Positions 19,454 through 26,752 of a DNA stretch of 64,000 nt are shown here, piece after piece. Position numbers and translations under genes: made by a program. How positions within the stretch are numbered: the first letter of the stretch is position 1; every line of letters starts with the position of its first letter. The notes under the pieces are model-generated. The model ran no database searches and was not told the origin of the DNA. It saw only the letters and a list, made by a program, of their open reading frames with translations. Source of the stretch: Bartonella tamiae Th239 (GTDB lineage: Bacteria; Pseudomonadota; Alphaproteobacteria; Rhizobiales; Rhizobiaceae); NCBI RefSeq assembly GCF_000278275.1, contig NZ_JH725147.1:1042849-1106848 (forward strand), given 5' to 3'.

Positions 19454-20269
19454 TCACTTATTATTTTGAGAAGTACCTGGGAATTTTGACATATAATAAG
19501 GAAGATTTTTAAAGAAACGTTTCTTTAAAATTGCTCCTGTAAGATCACGATGAACATCCATTTGTTTGCCAAAATTAACAAACACAATCACATCTTTTTC
19601 ATTTTCCATCCACCCCACAAACCATGCGATGCGATGGGGAACATTATCTGTCGTTTGTTTTCGAAATCCTGTCGCTCCCGTTTTTGCATAAACAGTCCAG
19701 CCATGAAATGACTGATCGATGCGAAAAATATTTTTTAAAAACTTTTGTTCGTTAGATGTCTGACTATAGTGACCAGAAGCGACATTGCTTAAAAATCTTA
19801 ATTGTTCCTGGGGTGAAAGAGACAATGTTCCATTGAGCCAAGCGCGTTGTAAACCATTTTCTCCGTTTTTATCTGATATATCTTTATTACCATAATCAAA
19901 ACGCTCTAATTGGTCTTGAAGTGTTTGTTTCCCAATTTTTTCAGTTAAGTGTTGAGAATACCAAACAACAGAATGGCGGATCCAGCTTTTGGGTGTTTGA
20001 GCTTTTTTCCAGATATTAAGTGAAGCATTATAACTTACATCATAAGGCCATTTGGGCGTATTTTCATCTTTTAAAATGCCTGCTTCATATCCAATTATAG
20101 CCAAAGGAATTTTAAAAGTTGATGCAGCTGGAGCACGTTCATTACAATCTCCCGACTGAAAAAAGGGGGCTACCGCATTGATGTTTTTAAGCAAAATACA
20201 ATCAGCGAGACTTGATGACGAATAGAAAAGACAACATAAAAAAGGGCAAATATAAAAAATATGTTTCAT
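19454..20269 (-). CDS. Class D (OXA-type) beta-lactamase
   Basis: This 271-residue secreted serine hydrolase has a signal peptide of about 22 residues. All class D landmarks are present: the nucleophile motif STFK at residues 50-53, SVV in IRHSVVWYS, YGN in FDYGNKDIS, WLNGTLSLSPQEQLRFL, and KTG in AKTGATGF. These predict a periplasmic enzyme that hydrolyses penicillins; the exact spectrum cannot be read from sequence. A BlaR-type sensor is unlikely because no transmembrane sensor region is present. The ATG at 20269 starts the signal; a second ATG at 20287 is possible and neither has a strong ribosome-binding site. Base composition resembles its neighbours and no mobile-element flanks are seen. 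Confidence 0.9.
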   Translation of the reverse strand: MKHIFYICPFLCCLFYSSSSLADCILLKNINAVAPFFQSGDCNERAPAASTFKIPLAIIGYEAGILKDENTPKWPYDVSYNASLNIWKKAQTPKSWIRHSVVWYSQHLTEKIGKQTLQDQLERFDYGNKDISDKNGENGLQRAWLNGTLSLSPQEQLRFLSNVASGHYSQTSNEQKFLKNIFRIDQSFHGWTVYAKTGATGFRKQTTDNVPHRIAWFVGWMENEKDVIVFVNFGKQMDVHRDLTGAILKKRFFKNLPYYMSKFPGTSQNNK

Positions 20270-20433
20270 ATATAAAAGGCCTAACATGATAATAAACGTG
20301 ATATAAACTGTATAAAATGAATTTTTTTTAGTATGTAATGTAAAAAACTATTTAGGATGATTTATTAAGTTCAAAATAAGAAATTATTTATCAAAAATCT
20401 GAATTTTATTGATCTTATGATTATTTCTGAATT

Positions 20434-21846
20434 TTAAACTGCTGTACCACCGATTGTCATACCATTCATACGTAAATGTGGCTGCCCTACACCAACAGGA
20501 ACGCTTTGTCCTGCTTTACCACAAGCACCAATGCCATTATCAAGTTTAGGATCATTGCCAATCATCGCAATGCGTTTCATCGCATCGGGACCATTACCAA
20601 TCAATGTTGCGCCTTTTATAGGCGCTGCAATTTTACCATTTTCAATACGATAAGCCTCTGTGCATTCAAAGACAAATTTACCTGAAGTAATATCAACCTG
20701 CCCACCACCAAAGGATACGGCATAAATTCCATTTTTTAATGAGCTTATAATTTCATCTGGATGATGTTGACCACCAAGCATCATAGTGTTTGTCATTCTA
20801 GGCATTGGCGCATAAGCATAGGATTCACGTCTTCCATTGCCTGTTGGTTTCACCCCCATAAGTCTTGCATTAAGACGATCTTGCATGAAACCCACTAATA
20901 TACCGTCTTCAATCAAAATGTTACGCGCTGACGGTGTCCCTTCATCGTCAACATTAAGAGAGCCTCGACGTTCAGAAATTGTGCCATCATCAACAATAGT
21001 TACGCCTTCTGCGGCAACTTGCTGCCCTAAGAGACCAGAAAAGGCCGATGTTTTTTTTCGATTAAAATCACCTTCAAGACCGTGTCCCACTGCTTCATGC
21101 AACATGACGCCAGGCCAACCATTAGCGAGAACCACATCAAATGTACCAGCAGGTGCGGCTTCTGCCTCTAAATTTACGATTGCCATACGCAAAGCTTCAT
21201 CAGCCGCGTGTTGCCAGTTTTCCTCTTGAATAAATTGATTAAATTCTTGGCGTCCGCCGCAGCCATAAAAGCCGTTTTCAAGACGATCTCCTTTGCCTGC
21301 AACAATAGAAACAGATAAACGGACAAGGGGGCGTATATCACGCACCAAATGACCGTCTGCCCTTAAAATTTCAACATGTTGTAGTGATCCTGCCAAAGAG
21401 ACACTTACCTGCCTGACAAAATCACTTTTTTCACGAATATATCCATCAATTTTTTCTAAAAGCGCAACTTTTTCTTCAAATGAGGGTGTCAGTAAAGGGT
21501 TATTATCTGTATAAAGCTTATGATTTGTACGCAAAGGTGCGGCACTATATTCCCCTTGATATCCATGGCTTATCGCTTTTGCAGCATCACTGGCCCGTTT
21601 TAAAGCAGCTTTTGATAATTCACCTGCATGCGCATAAGCGGTGGCTTCATCGGCAACGGCGCGCAAACCAAAACCTGTATCTTGATGAAATGAGCCGTTT
21701 TTTAACCGCCCATTATCAAATAAAAGAGCTTCACTTTCACGATGTTCAATAAACAACTCACCATCATCTGCGTTTTTCAAAGTGTCTTGAAGCACCTTTT
21801 GTACTTCATTTGCTCCAATATCAAATTGATCAATAAGCGATTTCAT
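20434..21846 (-). CDS. tldD: TldD metalloprotease
   Basis: This protein of about 470 residues has the TldD zinc motif in GVMLHEAVGHGLEGDFNRKKTSAF (HExxxH) and the conserved C-terminal GRRESYAYAPMPRMTNTMM. TldD pairs with TldE/PmbA in a heterodimeric protease that removes unfolded peptides, matures microcin B17 and degrades CcdA. No tldE/pmbA gene is adjacent, so it must lie elsewhere. ATG at 21846 follows GGA closely; an in-frame TTG at 21858 would add four residues. Confidence 0.95.
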   Translation of the reverse strand: MKSLIDQFDIGANEVQKVLQDTLKNADDGELFIEHRESEALLFDNGRLKNGSFHQDTGFGLRAVADEATAYAHAGELSKAALKRASDAAKAISHGYQGEYSAAPLRTNHKLYTDNNPLLTPSFEEKVALLEKIDGYIREKSDFVRQVSVSLAGSLQHVEILRADGHLVRDIRPLVRLSVSIVAGKGDRLENGFYGCGGRQEFNQFIQEENWQHAADEALRMAIVNLEAEAAPAGTFDVVLANGWPGVMLHEAVGHGLEGDFNRKKTSAFSGLLGQQVAAEGVTIVDDGTISERRGSLNVDDEGTPSARNILIEDGILVGFMQDRLNARLMGVKPTGNGRRESYAYAPMPRMTNTMMLGGQHHPDEIISSLKNGIYAVSFGGGQVDITSGKFVFECTEAYRIENGKIAAPIKGATLIGNGPDAMKRIAMIGNDPKLDNGIGACGKAGQSVPVGVGQPHLRMNGMTIGGTAV

Positions 21847-21990
21847 CAAAGGGTCCAATCATGAAGATTATAATGTCTTTTAAAAAAGGGATAAACTCAA
21901 TCTCATATATGATATGATAAAAATTTGAGCATTGAGTTTATTTTCATATGTTAATGACAATTGGCGTTTATTTTTTAAAATTAAAGGTTA

Positions 21991-22527
21991 TTATTTGAGT
22001 GCATTATAGGCTTGATTAAGTCCAGTTAAATCAATCATACCACCAACACCTTCTTCAGGTGTTGTAAAAATAAAATATGTTGCCATTTTTCCATCAAGAA
22101 ATGCTTTAAGGTCTTCAGGTTTTAAAAAGGCTTCGGCAACACAATTGTCACCAAGGCAGCGCCGATAGTCCATTTTGCCCATGTCTTTATCATCAATTTT
22201 AATGCCAACACCTAAGCGCAATTCTACTCTTATAGGAACGAAAACGCGCATCAATGTTCCCTCATTGTTAGGGAGTTTATAAAGTGTAACACGAAAGGTA
22301 ATGTCTGGACGGTTTTGAGCGCGCACATTTTGAACCACCTCACATTGAATATTCGGTGTTCCAGGTGGAAGTGTACAGATCTTTGTCCAAGCACCAAAAG
22401 TTTCAGGGGCAGGTACGTCTTGTTGGCTAGGGGCTTGCGCCAATGCGAAATGTACAGAAAATGCAACAATGGCTATAAAAGCTGATGCAATAATACTCAA
22501 AAAGTGAAATGTTTGACGAAGTGACAT
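21991..22527 (-). CDS. Invasion-associated locus B (IalB) family protein
   Basis: This 178-residue protein has a signal peptide (MSLRQTFHFLSIIASAFIAIVAFSVHFALA) and the IalB-family core: FGAWTKICTLPPG, CEVVQNVRAQN, a long beta region, and YRRCLGDNCVAEAFLKPEDLKAFLDGK with the two conserved Cys. The family is named for a Bartonella protein linked to erythrocyte invasion and is widespread in Rhizobiales. This copy is not necessarily IalB itself, and a role in invasion is only inferred. ATG at 22527 fits the signal; a longer upstream reading adds 13 residues of no clear use. Confidence 0.85.
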   Translation of the reverse strand: MSLRQTFHFLSIIASAFIAIVAFSVHFALAQAPSQQDVPAPETFGAWTKICTLPPGTPNIQCEVVQNVRAQNRPDITFRVTLYKLPNNEGTLMRVFVPIRVELRLGVGIKIDDKDMGKMDYRRCLGDNCVAEAFLKPEDLKAFLDGKMATYFIFTTPEEGVGGMIDLTGLNQAYNALK

Positions 22528-22819
22528 AAAAACTCCTGATCGAATCATCATGACGTTATCGCGCATGCGCCTTCATGAAAAGTAAAGTTAAGCTCATTAA
22601 TAACCAGTTTTTTATATATAAATGCAATTTTCTCACTTTATGCAATCAGAACATGGCAAAAAGGCGATAGTATTCACGAGCTTTTTTCTTTTTAAGAGTA
22701 TTGAGGCTGTTTGTCGCATTGTTTTATGGGATAGAAATTGATAAAGCATCATAAAATTAGTGCATATTAATAAAATTCTCTGTTTGAAGCAGGAGAATAT
22801 AGCTTTATTGGCAAAATTT

Positions 22820-24307
22820 ATGTCTAAAAAAAAGAAAACGCCTTTTTTTTCGTCTATTTTAAAATGTGATCATAAGATGATCGGTACATTTTATTTGGTG
22901 TTGGCTATTATATCGGGTCTTTTAGGGGCCGTTTTTTCTCTTTTGCTGCGTTTAAAATTAGATGACATTAATTTGGCGCATTTAAATGGATTTCTTTCAA
23001 CGCCCTCAGATGAATTATGGTTGTTTATATTGAATATAAGTCATGCTATCATTTTTATTTTTTTTACGCTCATACCAGCCTTGATGGGTGGTTTTGGCAA
23101 TTGGTTTTTGCCTTTAATGTTGGGTGCAAAAAATGTCGCATTTCCAAAATTGAATTATCTTAGCTTTGGTCTTTTAGTGACATCATTTATATTAACATGT
23201 ATTATGGGAGTTATAAAGTATAGTGGATTTGAAGCAAGTATCTTAGGCTTATCAGCAATTTATCTTGCAGCTTTTAGTTTCATCATTATTTTTATCAATT
23301 TTATTGTCACAATCGTTACGATGCGTGCGCCAGGTTTAACGCTTTCTGGTTTGCCAATTTTTGTCTGGTCAATCTTGATCGCTTCATTCTTAGGTTTGAT
23401 TTATGTTCCAGCTATTATCGCGTCCATTCCTCATTCTATGAACTTCCTTTTTTCGATGAGAAATATTGAAACGGATGTTCAAAGTTTTTATCTCATGATG
23501 TGGTTTTATACACATCCAGAACTTTACGTCTTGTTGTTGCCAGCTTTTGGAATAATCAGCCAGATTATTATCTCATTTTGTAAACGCGCATTATGGGGAG
23601 AGCGTTTTGTTATTGTCGCAATGATCGCGATGGGAGGTATGGGGTTGTTATCTTGGATGTCTGATCTTTTTAGATTCAATGGGTTTGGTTTGGGATCTCT
23701 TCATTTCGTTTTGGCGCCTCCAATCATGTTAACAGCAATGGTCTTTATTTTAGGCAGCTGGTTTATGACTTTATTGAAAAGCCATCTTTCATTGCAAATA
23801 CCATTATATTGGGTGTTCGGATTTTTGGTCATGTTATTTATGGGACTCATTTCAATGGCTCAATTCATCTATGTGACATGGTTTGAATACAATTTGGGTT
23901 CGTCAAATTATATTGCTCATTTTCATTATTTATTATCATTAAATGCAGTGTTTGCTATTTTTGCTGCTTGGTATTATTGGTTGCCAAAAATGACGGGATA
24001 TCAATCGTCCTCTTTGATAAGTAAATTGCATTTTTGGTCTTTTTTTATAGGAAGTAATGCTATTTTTATACCGCAATATTTGACTGGCTCAGACCTTAAA
24101 GCATCCTATTTGATTGCTGTTTCTTTATTTGGTGCTTCGTTATCTGGAGTGTCGGTATTTATTTTTCTTTATAATCTAGCTGATACTTTTTTACGCCGAC
24201 GCCAATCTAAACCTTACCCATGGGGTAAAGGTACAAATACATTAGAATGGCAATTGCCCTCTCCGCCTAAAGAGGGGTGGATATTAGTTCCGCGTCTTTC
24301 AAAATAA
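22820..24307 (+). CDS. CtaD-like haem-copper oxidase subunit I, Cu-B ligands and proton-channel residues lost
   Basis: This 495-residue protein is clearly subunit I of cytochrome c oxidase by its order of motifs: DHKMIGTFYLV, PALMGGFGNWFLPLMLGA, HPELY, AHFHYLLSLNAVFAIFA, and TLEWQLPSPP at the C terminus. The haem His residues remain (75, 367, 369), as do Cu-B-region His232, Glu234 and Tyr236. The usual His-His pair is Ser281-Asp282 (bases 23660-23665), the D-channel Asp is Asn105, and the K-channel Lys is Ile310. The Arg-Arg pair near haem propionates is also missing. It cannot bind Cu-B normally, so oxygen reduction and proton pumping are doubtful. The frame is intact. The start may be GTG at 22760; ctaB follows. 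Confidence 0.9.
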   Translation: MSKKKKTPFFSSILKCDHKMIGTFYLVLAIISGLLGAVFSLLLRLKLDDINLAHLNGFLSTPSDELWLFILNISHAIIFIFFTLIPALMGGFGNWFLPLMLGAKNVAFPKLNYLSFGLLVTSFILTCIMGVIKYSGFEASILGLSAIYLAAFSFIIIFINFIVTIVTMRAPGLTLSGLPIFVWSILIASFLGLIYVPAIIASIPHSMNFLFSMRNIETDVQSFYLMMWFYTHPELYVLLLPAFGIISQIIISFCKRALWGERFVIVAMIAMGGMGLLSWMSDLFRFNGFGLGSLHFVLAPPIMLTAMVFILGSWFMTLLKSHLSLQIPLYWVFGFLVMLFMGLISMAQFIYVTWFEYNLGSSNYIAHFHYLLSLNAVFAIFAAWYYWLPKMTGYQSSSLISKLHFWSFFIGSNAIFIPQYLTGSDLKASYLIAVSLFGASLSGVSVFIFLYNLADTFLRRRQSKPYPWGKGTNTLEWQLPSPPKEGWILVPRLSK

Positions 24308-24510
24308 AATTTATGTCAAATACATTAGAAATGTGTGATAATGAAACCATGACTATGCTTTCTAAAGGCTTACATCGTGTTTTTAGTCTATGGCAAGACT
24401 TGATGTCGTGATGCGTTTATAGTGTGTCTACACGATGTTGATATGATTATGCATAAGCAGAATATCGCTCAAGCTGGATTTAATTAAAATGAAAAAGGTC
24501 GTTAAATAGA

Positions 24511-25449
24511 ATGTCTGTGCTTCATCCTATAAAAAAAAATGTTGTCGATGAACCTTCAGAGGCAAATGCACATGATTATATGACACTATTAAAACCACGT
24601 GTCATGTCTTTGGTTGTTTTTACGGCGCTTGTTGGTCTGCTTGTTGCACCGAGTTCTATCAATCCTATCATCGGATTTATAGCTATTTTTTGTATTGCAG
24701 TTGGCGGTGGCGCATCTGGTGCATTGAATATGTGGTATGATGCGGATATTGACGCAATCATGAAAAGAACGCAAAAAAGAGCCATTCCATCCGGAAAATT
24801 AAAACCGAAAGAAGTTTTTATTTTTGGAATTGTGCTTTCTATTTTTTCCGTTTTAACAATGGGTATTTTTGTTAATTGGTTTTCGGCAGCGTTTTTAGCT
24901 TTTACAATATTTTTCTATGTTGTTATTTATACGATGTGGCTAAAAAGAATAACACCGCAAAACATTGTTATTGGTGGTGCATCGGGTGCCTTTCCGCCAA
25001 TGATTGGATGGGCGGCAGCGACGGGTACAATCAGTGTTGATAGTTGTATTTTATTTCTCATTATTTTTATGTGGACACCACCTCATTTTTGGGCATTATC
25101 TTTATTTGCAAAAACAGATTATGGTGCCGCAAAGATCCCTATGATGCCTAATGTTCGTGGAGAAAAGTCTACGAAAAATCAGATTTTGGTTTATGCAATT
25201 CTTATGGCACTCTGTGGAGTTTTACCCTCTATCATGGGTTTTGCTGGATTGTTTTATGGTGTTTTATCTGCGCTTTTAGGTATAATTTTTGTTTATCGGG
25301 CTTTTTATTTATGGAAAGTTGTCGATAAAGAAAAAACGATTTTTGCTGCAAAAAAACTTTTCTTTTTCTCACTTATTTATCTTTTTGCTATATTTGCGGT
25401 TCTCTTAATTGAATCAACCGTATTGCGTTTCATGGGCTATTGGGGTTGA
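24511..25449 (+). CDS. ctaB: Protoheme IX farnesyltransferase (haem O synthase)
   Basis: This 312-residue UbiA-superfamily membrane enzyme attaches a farnesyl group to haem B to make haem O, needed for haem-copper oxidases. The prenyl-diphosphate motif is [23 protein letters not shown], and the second conserved loop is [22 protein letters not shown]. About eight or nine membrane segments are visible. It follows the aberrant ctaD by 203 bases and precedes the 50-residue membrane peptide; no ctaC, ctaE or ctaG is adjacent. Confidence 0.96.

Positions 25450-25639: not shown

Positions 25640-26752
<1,113 letters not shown>

Follow-up and report, generated by a model that had tools for sequence, protein, structure and literature searches.

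Few known proteins are as strongly conserved as the central subunit of the respiratory oxidase. Within a 64,000-nucleotide stretch of Bartonella tamiae Th239 DNA, which we analysed whole and call the window, one open gene resembles ctaD, encoding subunit I of the aa3 cytochrome c oxidase, and specifies a protein in which residues of the Cu-B site and the proton channels have been replaced. This raises the question of what such a protein is kept for. The first-pass annotation of the window had offered two answers: a new haem-binding, non-pumping role, or a recent step toward decay.

An intact subunit I frame with a replaced copper site

The frame translates to 495 residues with a single terminal stop. 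A TTG in frame four codons upstream of the ATG, at 22808, leaves a slight doubt about the start; because that stretch contains a TAG in three orthologues, we retained the ATG at 22820. The best match among PDB chains was Paracoccus COX I (1ar1_A, phmmer E 1.1e-69). The protein scores well above the cut-off of the Pfam COX1 family PF00115 (208.8 versus 34.8 bits) and falls short of both the CtaD equivalog TIGR02891 (274.5 versus 670.75 bits) and the CyoB equivalog TIGR02843 (181.2 versus 1020.35 bits). An AlphaFold model (pLDDT 79.2, pTM 0.85) aligned to 1ar1_A with a Z of 41.7 and an rmsd of 2.7 over 457 residues, a fold that was expected and not independently found, as 31 of the 34 rows in the model's alignment were canonical CtaD. 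The gene, which we call the solo CtaD, and its diagnostic residues are as follows, with counts across the 20 family members described below:

22820..24307, + strand: solo CtaD-like gene, 495 amino acids, 12 predicted transmembrane helices
23042..23044, + strand: His75, low-spin haem a ligand, kept (19/20)
23132..23134, + strand: Asn105, replacing the D-channel Asp (Asn in 16/20, Asp in 4/20)
23513..23515, + strand: His232, sole Cu-B ligand left (19/20)
23660..23665, + strand: Ser281-Asp282, replacing the Cu-B His-His pair (no His at 281/282 in 20/20)
23747..23749, + strand: Ile310, replacing the K-channel Lys (Ile in 19/20, Leu in 1/20)
23918..23926, + strand: His367-Phe-His369, high-spin haem ligand and second low-spin haem ligand, kept (18/20 each)

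The roles given to these residues (haem, Cu-B, channels) were transferred by alignment from known oxidase structures, and we presume that they hold here. The canonical WAHHM reads WMSDL in the alignments, GAPDMAF reads GAKNVAF, and the GMPRR segment is deleted, whereby the Arg-Arg pair is gone. Glu234, Tyr236 and the TLEW..PSPP C-terminus are retained, and His75, His367 and His369 align with the canonical His ligands of both haems. We thus recovered every loss and every retained residue that the first-pass annotation had listed, together with one loss beyond its list, that of the HD pair preceding VAHFHY, which we take to be the Mg/Mn site. Only one of the three Cu-B His, His232, is present, positions 281 and 282 being Ser and Asp, and neither channel entry residue remains (Ile310, Asn105). 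Nitric oxide reductases (cNOR/qNOR) have three His and a Glu around a non-haem Fe-B; the solo CtaD does not fit that pattern either, having other residues at two of those three His. Separate alignments agree, which rules out a frame artefact or misaligned Cu-B His. Given that the Cu-B pair, the K-channel Lys, the Arg pair and, in most members, the D-channel Asp are gone, a protein with these residues cannot be an ordinary proton-pumping oxidase.

A lone gene at the cox locus

We compared the surroundings of the solo CtaD with those of canonical oxidase genes:

20434..21858, - strand: tldD, conserved neighbour (Pfam, locus comparison)
21991..22566, - strand: ialB-family gene, divergent, marking the ancestral cox locus (Pfam, locus comparison)
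22567..22819, no strand: place of ctaC (subunit II) in canonical loci, absent here (locus comparison)
24511..25449, + strand: ctaB, haem O synthase, sole match in its own genome
25450..25639, no strand: place of ctaG, ctaE, DUF983 and surf1 in canonical loci, absent here (locus comparison)
25640..26752, + strand: ispH (LytB family), conserved downstream neighbour, directly after ctaB (locus comparison)

The canonical order, seen in loci L042 and L044, is ialB (divergent), ctaC, ctaD, ctaB, ctaG, ctaE, DUF983, surf1; the genes were verified by Pfam in L044 and by tblastn in L042 and L218. Thirteen of the 14 Bartonella loci with the solo gene read tldD, ialB, solo CtaD, ctaB, ispH, thrB, rnhA, where thrB is the name we presume for an APH-family (Pfam) neighbour. 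In three further genera of the family, designated g51, g31 (genomes G204 and G100) and g97, the order is solo CtaD, ctaB, ispH, thrB, rnhA. The loci of G084 and G331 were read over no more than about 1.5 kb. The ctaB gene adjoins the solo CtaD in 18 of 18 loci examined, and in all 16 that were measured the solo CtaD precedes it on the same strand with a gap of 9-565 bp. A tblastn search (E 0.01) of 18 solo CtaD loci, which took in the whole 64 kb window, returned no match to ctaC, ctaG, ctaE, DUF983 or surf1, while both control loci showed all five genes.

Genome-wide, COX2 has one or two matches in 68 of the 71 Bartonella genomes; the single match in the B. tamiae genome adjoins cyoB. Cox11 was found in none of 18 Bartonella genomes, 14 of which carry the solo CtaD. 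As far as we searched, then, this genome holds neither a partner subunit II nor Cox11. The first-pass annotation had described a loss of the catalytic centre only; that centre is indeed lost, but the locus also lacks subunits II and III, Cox11 and Surf1, and for subunit II and Cox11 the absence extends, as far as searched, to the genome as a whole.

CtaA and CtaB both match in 71 of 71 Bartonella genomes, so haem O and haem A can be made. Because 57 of these 71 genomes match CtaB and have no solo CtaD, CtaB does not need the solo CtaD. At all 17 junctions examined among those 57 genomes the order is tldD-ialB-ctaB-ispH, and no pseudogene remnant of the solo CtaD was found in these 17. Gene order thus marks the solo CtaD as the ancestral ctaD, still at its original site after the rest of the oxidase had gone, and cleanly deleted afterwards in other Bartonella. 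The loss of its oxidase partners would most simply predate the split of the Bartonella lineages.

Several other features of these loci and genomes were recorded. A megablast search of 22700-24600 against plasmids gave no match, and a plasmid origin was rejected. A promoter and terminator scan found no promoter-like site in 22549-22819, and returned 18 promoter-like sites against 12.5 expected. In genome G064 (L222, 8852-9798), ctaB lies in two frames with stops beside an intact solo CtaD, reflecting either decay or an assembly error. Elsewhere in the window, 19454-20287 on the - strand encodes a homologue of class D (OXA-type) beta-lactamases, which at 219.6 bits against bla_class_D_alt falls short of the cut-off of 280, and 26626-26700, at the 3' end of ispH, is a perfect 12.5-copy repeat of the hexamer CAACGG that encodes an Asn-Gly run. 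The ctaA gene of G084 is split into two matches. Of 19 genomes searched for the bc1 cytochrome b, 17 gave a match, among them Bartonella in which no cytochrome c oxidase was found; the gene carries stops in G004 and G014, and the two genomes with no match are G008 and G204. No aa3 oxidase was found in Bartonella though CtaA matches in all 71 genomes, which suggests that the Cyo oxidase of Bartonella may carry haem A.

Distribution of the solo CtaD and its residues

An orthologue of the solo CtaD is present in 14 of the 71 Bartonella genomes (one per species), scoring 782-951 bits against the family profile; the best CyoB match scored 232 bits. The relatives outside Bartonella were found in both g51 genomes seen (G120, G219), in three of four g31 genomes (G100, G204 and G331; absent in G274) and in the one g97 genome (G166). 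They were counted among the matches listed in wider searches of 161 genomes of the family and of 394 genomes, and eroded members may be more numerous. The first-pass annotation had advised a search for a second, normal ctaD; there is none, since only cyoB and the solo CtaD match PF00115 in the B. tamiae genome. The COX1 family likewise comprises only these two genes in G120, G219, G204, G166 and G100. Among 80 loci returned from GTDB contigs, 78 hold W.HH and the other two are Bartonella orthologues of the solo CtaD, so the loss of the Cu-B pair is not chance. The canonical motif was also present in 48 of 48 further loci outside the solo CtaD genera, pooled from two overlapping searches and hence not 48 distinct genomes.

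We then counted residues across 20 members: 14 from Bartonella, two from g51, one from g97 and three from g31. All 14 Bartonella members have Asp at position 282, where five of the others have Asn and one has Thr; the Arg-Arg pair is present in none. Tyr236 is kept in 16 members (Phe in four) and Glu234 in 13 (Gln in five, Gly in two). Every exception at His75, His232, His367 and His369 belongs to g31. All four His therefore occur in 17 of 17 members outside g31, a selected set from which three g31 sequences were excluded as eroded-looking (high omega, broken ligands); with g31 included, each haem His is missing from at least one member (kept in 18 or 19 of 20). The haem-iron ligands are present in every member from Bartonella, g51 and g97.

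The g31 ligand breaks differ from one another: H367N in G204, H369Y in G331 and all four His in G100. The dN/dS of G331 versus G204 is 0.30 (NG86) or 0.42 (YN00). Selection on the solo CtaD is relaxed in g31, and the gene is eroding there. In G100, a genome of 1.1 Mb, the solo CtaD-like frame (L248, 7427-8755) has 442 codons, lacks all four haem and Cu-B His as well as the C-terminal signature, and ends at a stop codon past which the family match extends.

In a tree, 18 solo CtaD rows fell on one side of a branch and 29 canonical CtaD on the other, with support of 100/100; the tree, from which G100 and G331 were left out, has long branches and drew the program's long-branch warning. The solo CtaD probably arose once, before the divergence of Bartonella, g51, g31 and g97, though these sequences do not prove it.

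Selection and the two halves of the protein

The solo CtaD is clearly under purifying selection in Bartonella and g51. Omega was 0.135, 0.119 and 0.156 in three pairs of bee-clade Bartonella and 0.049 in the g51 pair (each p < 1e-13 versus 1), and a second method gave dN/dS of 0.048-0.265 across 12 overlapping pairs, the 11 Bartonella pairs, which overlap, spanning 0.125-0.265. These values lie above that of ctaB in 11 of the 12 pairs and, in all 11 Bartonella pairs, above that of each neighbouring gene compared. Constraint on the solo CtaD is thus below that on its neighbours in Bartonella, and equal to that on ctaB in g51.

To see which parts of the protein have been kept, we used 291 columns that are invariant among 78 canonical CtaD. 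The 17 members outside g31 all share the canonical residue at 83 of these columns, which include the three haem-iron His (hypergeometric p 0.023, in this selected set lacking g31). Helices I, II, X, XI and XII, which we take from the Paracoccus structure to surround low-spin haem a, keep 0.76 of the invariants, versus 0.44 in helices III-IX (p 4e-7; 17 members, g31 excluded). The three g31 rows alone gave 0.59 versus 0.43 (p 0.010). This bias is no habit of diverged oxidases, since 26 CyoB controls show none (0.50 in helices I, II and X-XII versus 0.55 in III-IX, p 0.40). Recent change is even, with a pN/pS of 0.105 in the haem-a helices and 0.100 in the rest (permutation p 0.58, five pooled pairs), so present constraint is not focused on the haem-a half. 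From these patterns, we read a copper/proton half that was probably rewritten long ago, followed by renewed constraint on the whole protein, which would be the mark of a changed function and not of half-finished decay.

These results bear on both answers with which we began. The recent step toward decay is disfavoured, as the losses are common to 14 Bartonella genomes and three further genera and omega is 0.05-0.16; neither orthologues with both Cu-B His nor a dN/dS near 1, the pattern that the first-pass annotation had associated with a decaying gene, was found. The new haem-binding, non-pumping role is favoured by the shared losses and by omega, with haem binding itself predicted from sequence.

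Relation to known systems

Matsutani et al. 2014 reportedly ascribe the dead ctaD of Acetobacter to accumulated mutations. A later text, which cites that study, describes a deranged COX1-like gene in Acetobacter that lacks all metal-binding residues and is kept with ctaB, perhaps stabilising CtaB (PMC10715153). In A. pasteurianus, ctaD (APT_01775) and ctaB (APT_01774) occur together with ctaA and a ba3 quinol oxidase (PMC5158111). Like the deranged COX1, the solo CtaD is a lone subunit I homologue beside ctaB, with no cox operon, after loss of the cytochrome c oxidase; the genomes on both sides have ctaA and a Cyo-type quinol oxidase, and bc1 genes occur in several acetous species. This likeness in description stops at the metal ligands: the Acetobacter protein is reported to have lost them all (PMC10715153), whereas the solo CtaD keeps the haem-iron His in all Bartonella, g51 and g97 members. 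With that precedent, the Bartonella gene is thus a second case of the Acetobacter kind, but one in which the haem ligands are kept under selection across many species. The earlier claim that no CtaD with this set of losses had been described therefore needs qualifying, since a ligand-less COX1-like protein beside ctaB is on record for Acetobacter (PMC10715153). No description of the solo CtaD gene was found by title or abstract among the matches listed in the Bartonella and Tokpelaia literature, and a search for literature on subunit I proteins lacking Cu-B found nothing useful.

Within the haem-copper superfamily, the solo CtaD shares with aa3 subunit I (CtaD/CoxA; TIGR02891, PF00115) its full-length homology, locus, haem ligands, 12 helices and TLEW..PSPP signature, and differs from it in lacking the Cu-B pair, the K- and D-channel residues, the Arg pair and the partner subunits. 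CyoB (TIGR02843) belongs to the same superfamily and occurs in the same genomes; in contrast to the solo CtaD, the WxHH Cu-B pair is intact in the three CyoB inspected, and the two halves of CyoB are conserved without bias. Pseudomonas aeruginosa has an orphan oxidase subunit I gene, CcoN4, whose product replaces the normal subunit in an active oxidase. Both CcoN4 and the solo CtaD are extra subunit I genes outside a full operon, but the solo CtaD has neither a catalytic site nor a partner operon.

A proposed role and its alternatives

The solo CtaD is most probably a lone, copper-free, non-pumping membrane haem protein. The explanation that we favour, and to which we give about an even chance of being right, is that it is a vertically inherited aa3 subunit I, now solo, that would still hold haem and possibly serve Cyo. 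The protein would descend from an oxidase that lost the rest of its subunits together with its copper-insertion factor, and it would act alone in the membrane. It would still bind haem, at least at the bis-His low-spin site formed by His75 and His369, and a second haem on His367 is probable. It could take up and hold haem O or A from CtaB, the product of the next gene, and from CtaA, as its parent would have done during assembly, and thereby buffer haem or hand it to the quinol oxidase Cyo, the sole ordinary haem-copper oxidase that appears to be left. The haem-holding step is likely, given the conserved ligands. We suggest the link to CtaB and Cyo far more tentatively: 57 genomes with CtaB but no solo CtaD weaken it, and since ctaD and ctaB were already neighbours in the ancestral locus, their adjacency does not independently point to a shared job. 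The presence of CtaA and CtaB in all 71 genomes, with no aa3 oxidase found, fits a supply of haem O or A to Cyo.

Alternatively, the solo CtaD may be a structural partner without haem chemistry, kept only to stabilise CtaB or another membrane protein, which we regard as unlikely but as having a real, if minor, chance. The same has been suggested for the deranged Acetobacter protein (PMC10715153), and the ctaD and ctaB tags of A. pasteurianus are consecutive in a genome with ctaA and the ba3 quinol oxidase (PMC5158111). The constant position of ctaB beside the solo CtaD (18/18 loci, with strand and order the same in 16/16 measured) and the 442-codon frame that G100 retains without any haem-ligand His point the same way. 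A purely structural role would not, however, account for four His kept in all 17 members of the set that excludes g31, nor for the selective preservation of the haem-a half; CtaB does without such a partner in 57 of 71 Bartonella, and the G100 frame, with a family match that passes its stop codon, looks eroded. Improbable in our view is a gas-binding or non-copper redox enzyme, an O2/NO sensor or slow reductase with high-spin haem on His367 and with His232 and Asp or Asn282 on the distal side. The most heavily rewritten helices are those of the binuclear half, Tyr236 has become Phe in four of 20 members and Glu234 Gln in five and Gly in two, and there is no subunit II at the locus, all of which argues against such chemistry, even though every one of the 17 members outside g31 has His367 and His232 and Asp282 is fixed in 14 of 14 Bartonella.

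Slow decay, in which the solo CtaD is a dead oxidase gene awaiting deletion, would be consistent with its dN/dS, which exceeds that of all other genes compared in each of the 11 overlapping Bartonella pairs, with its clean absence from 17 of 17 loci examined in Bartonella without the gene, and with erosion and loss in g31. The open frames of all 14 Bartonella and both g51 members, with the same kind of losses, speak against it, both halves are equally constrained today, and an omega of 0.05-0.16 in four pairs (p < 1e-13) largely refutes it for Bartonella and g51; we consider it highly improbable. Hardly credible is a terminal oxidase that still works, despite its unusual ligands, by borrowing a subunit II such as CyoA from elsewhere. 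The family lacks two of the three Cu-B His, the K-channel Lys and, in most members, the D-channel Asp; Cox11 was found in none of the 18 Bartonella genomes searched; and the overall fold that might recommend this reading (pLDDT 79, pTM 0.85, Z 41.7 to 1ar1_A) was to be expected from a model alignment with 31 canonical CtaD.

A haem-holding solo CtaD could extend to a broader proposal, which we think somewhat doubtful but well within reach: that it represents a new functional class in the haem-copper superfamily, a solo half-oxidase that retained its low-spin haem half, whereas its copper/proton half changed and was then fixed anew by selection. The outcome would be a haem carrier, relay or sensor in the membrane, dating from the time when quinol oxidase became the only oxidase of the Bartonella-related lineages. 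Acetobacter may independently have taken the same route.

Implications

A subunit I under selection without its copper site and proton channels would separate haem holding from catalysis naturally, and the solo CtaD makes it possible to test which functions subunit I can perform by itself. It also offers a test of whether solo genes beside ctaB, in the Bartonella group and in Acetobacter, serve the handling of haem O or A for quinol oxidase. For genome annotation, the label "cytochrome c oxidase subunit I" in Bartonella does not imply a cytochrome c oxidase.
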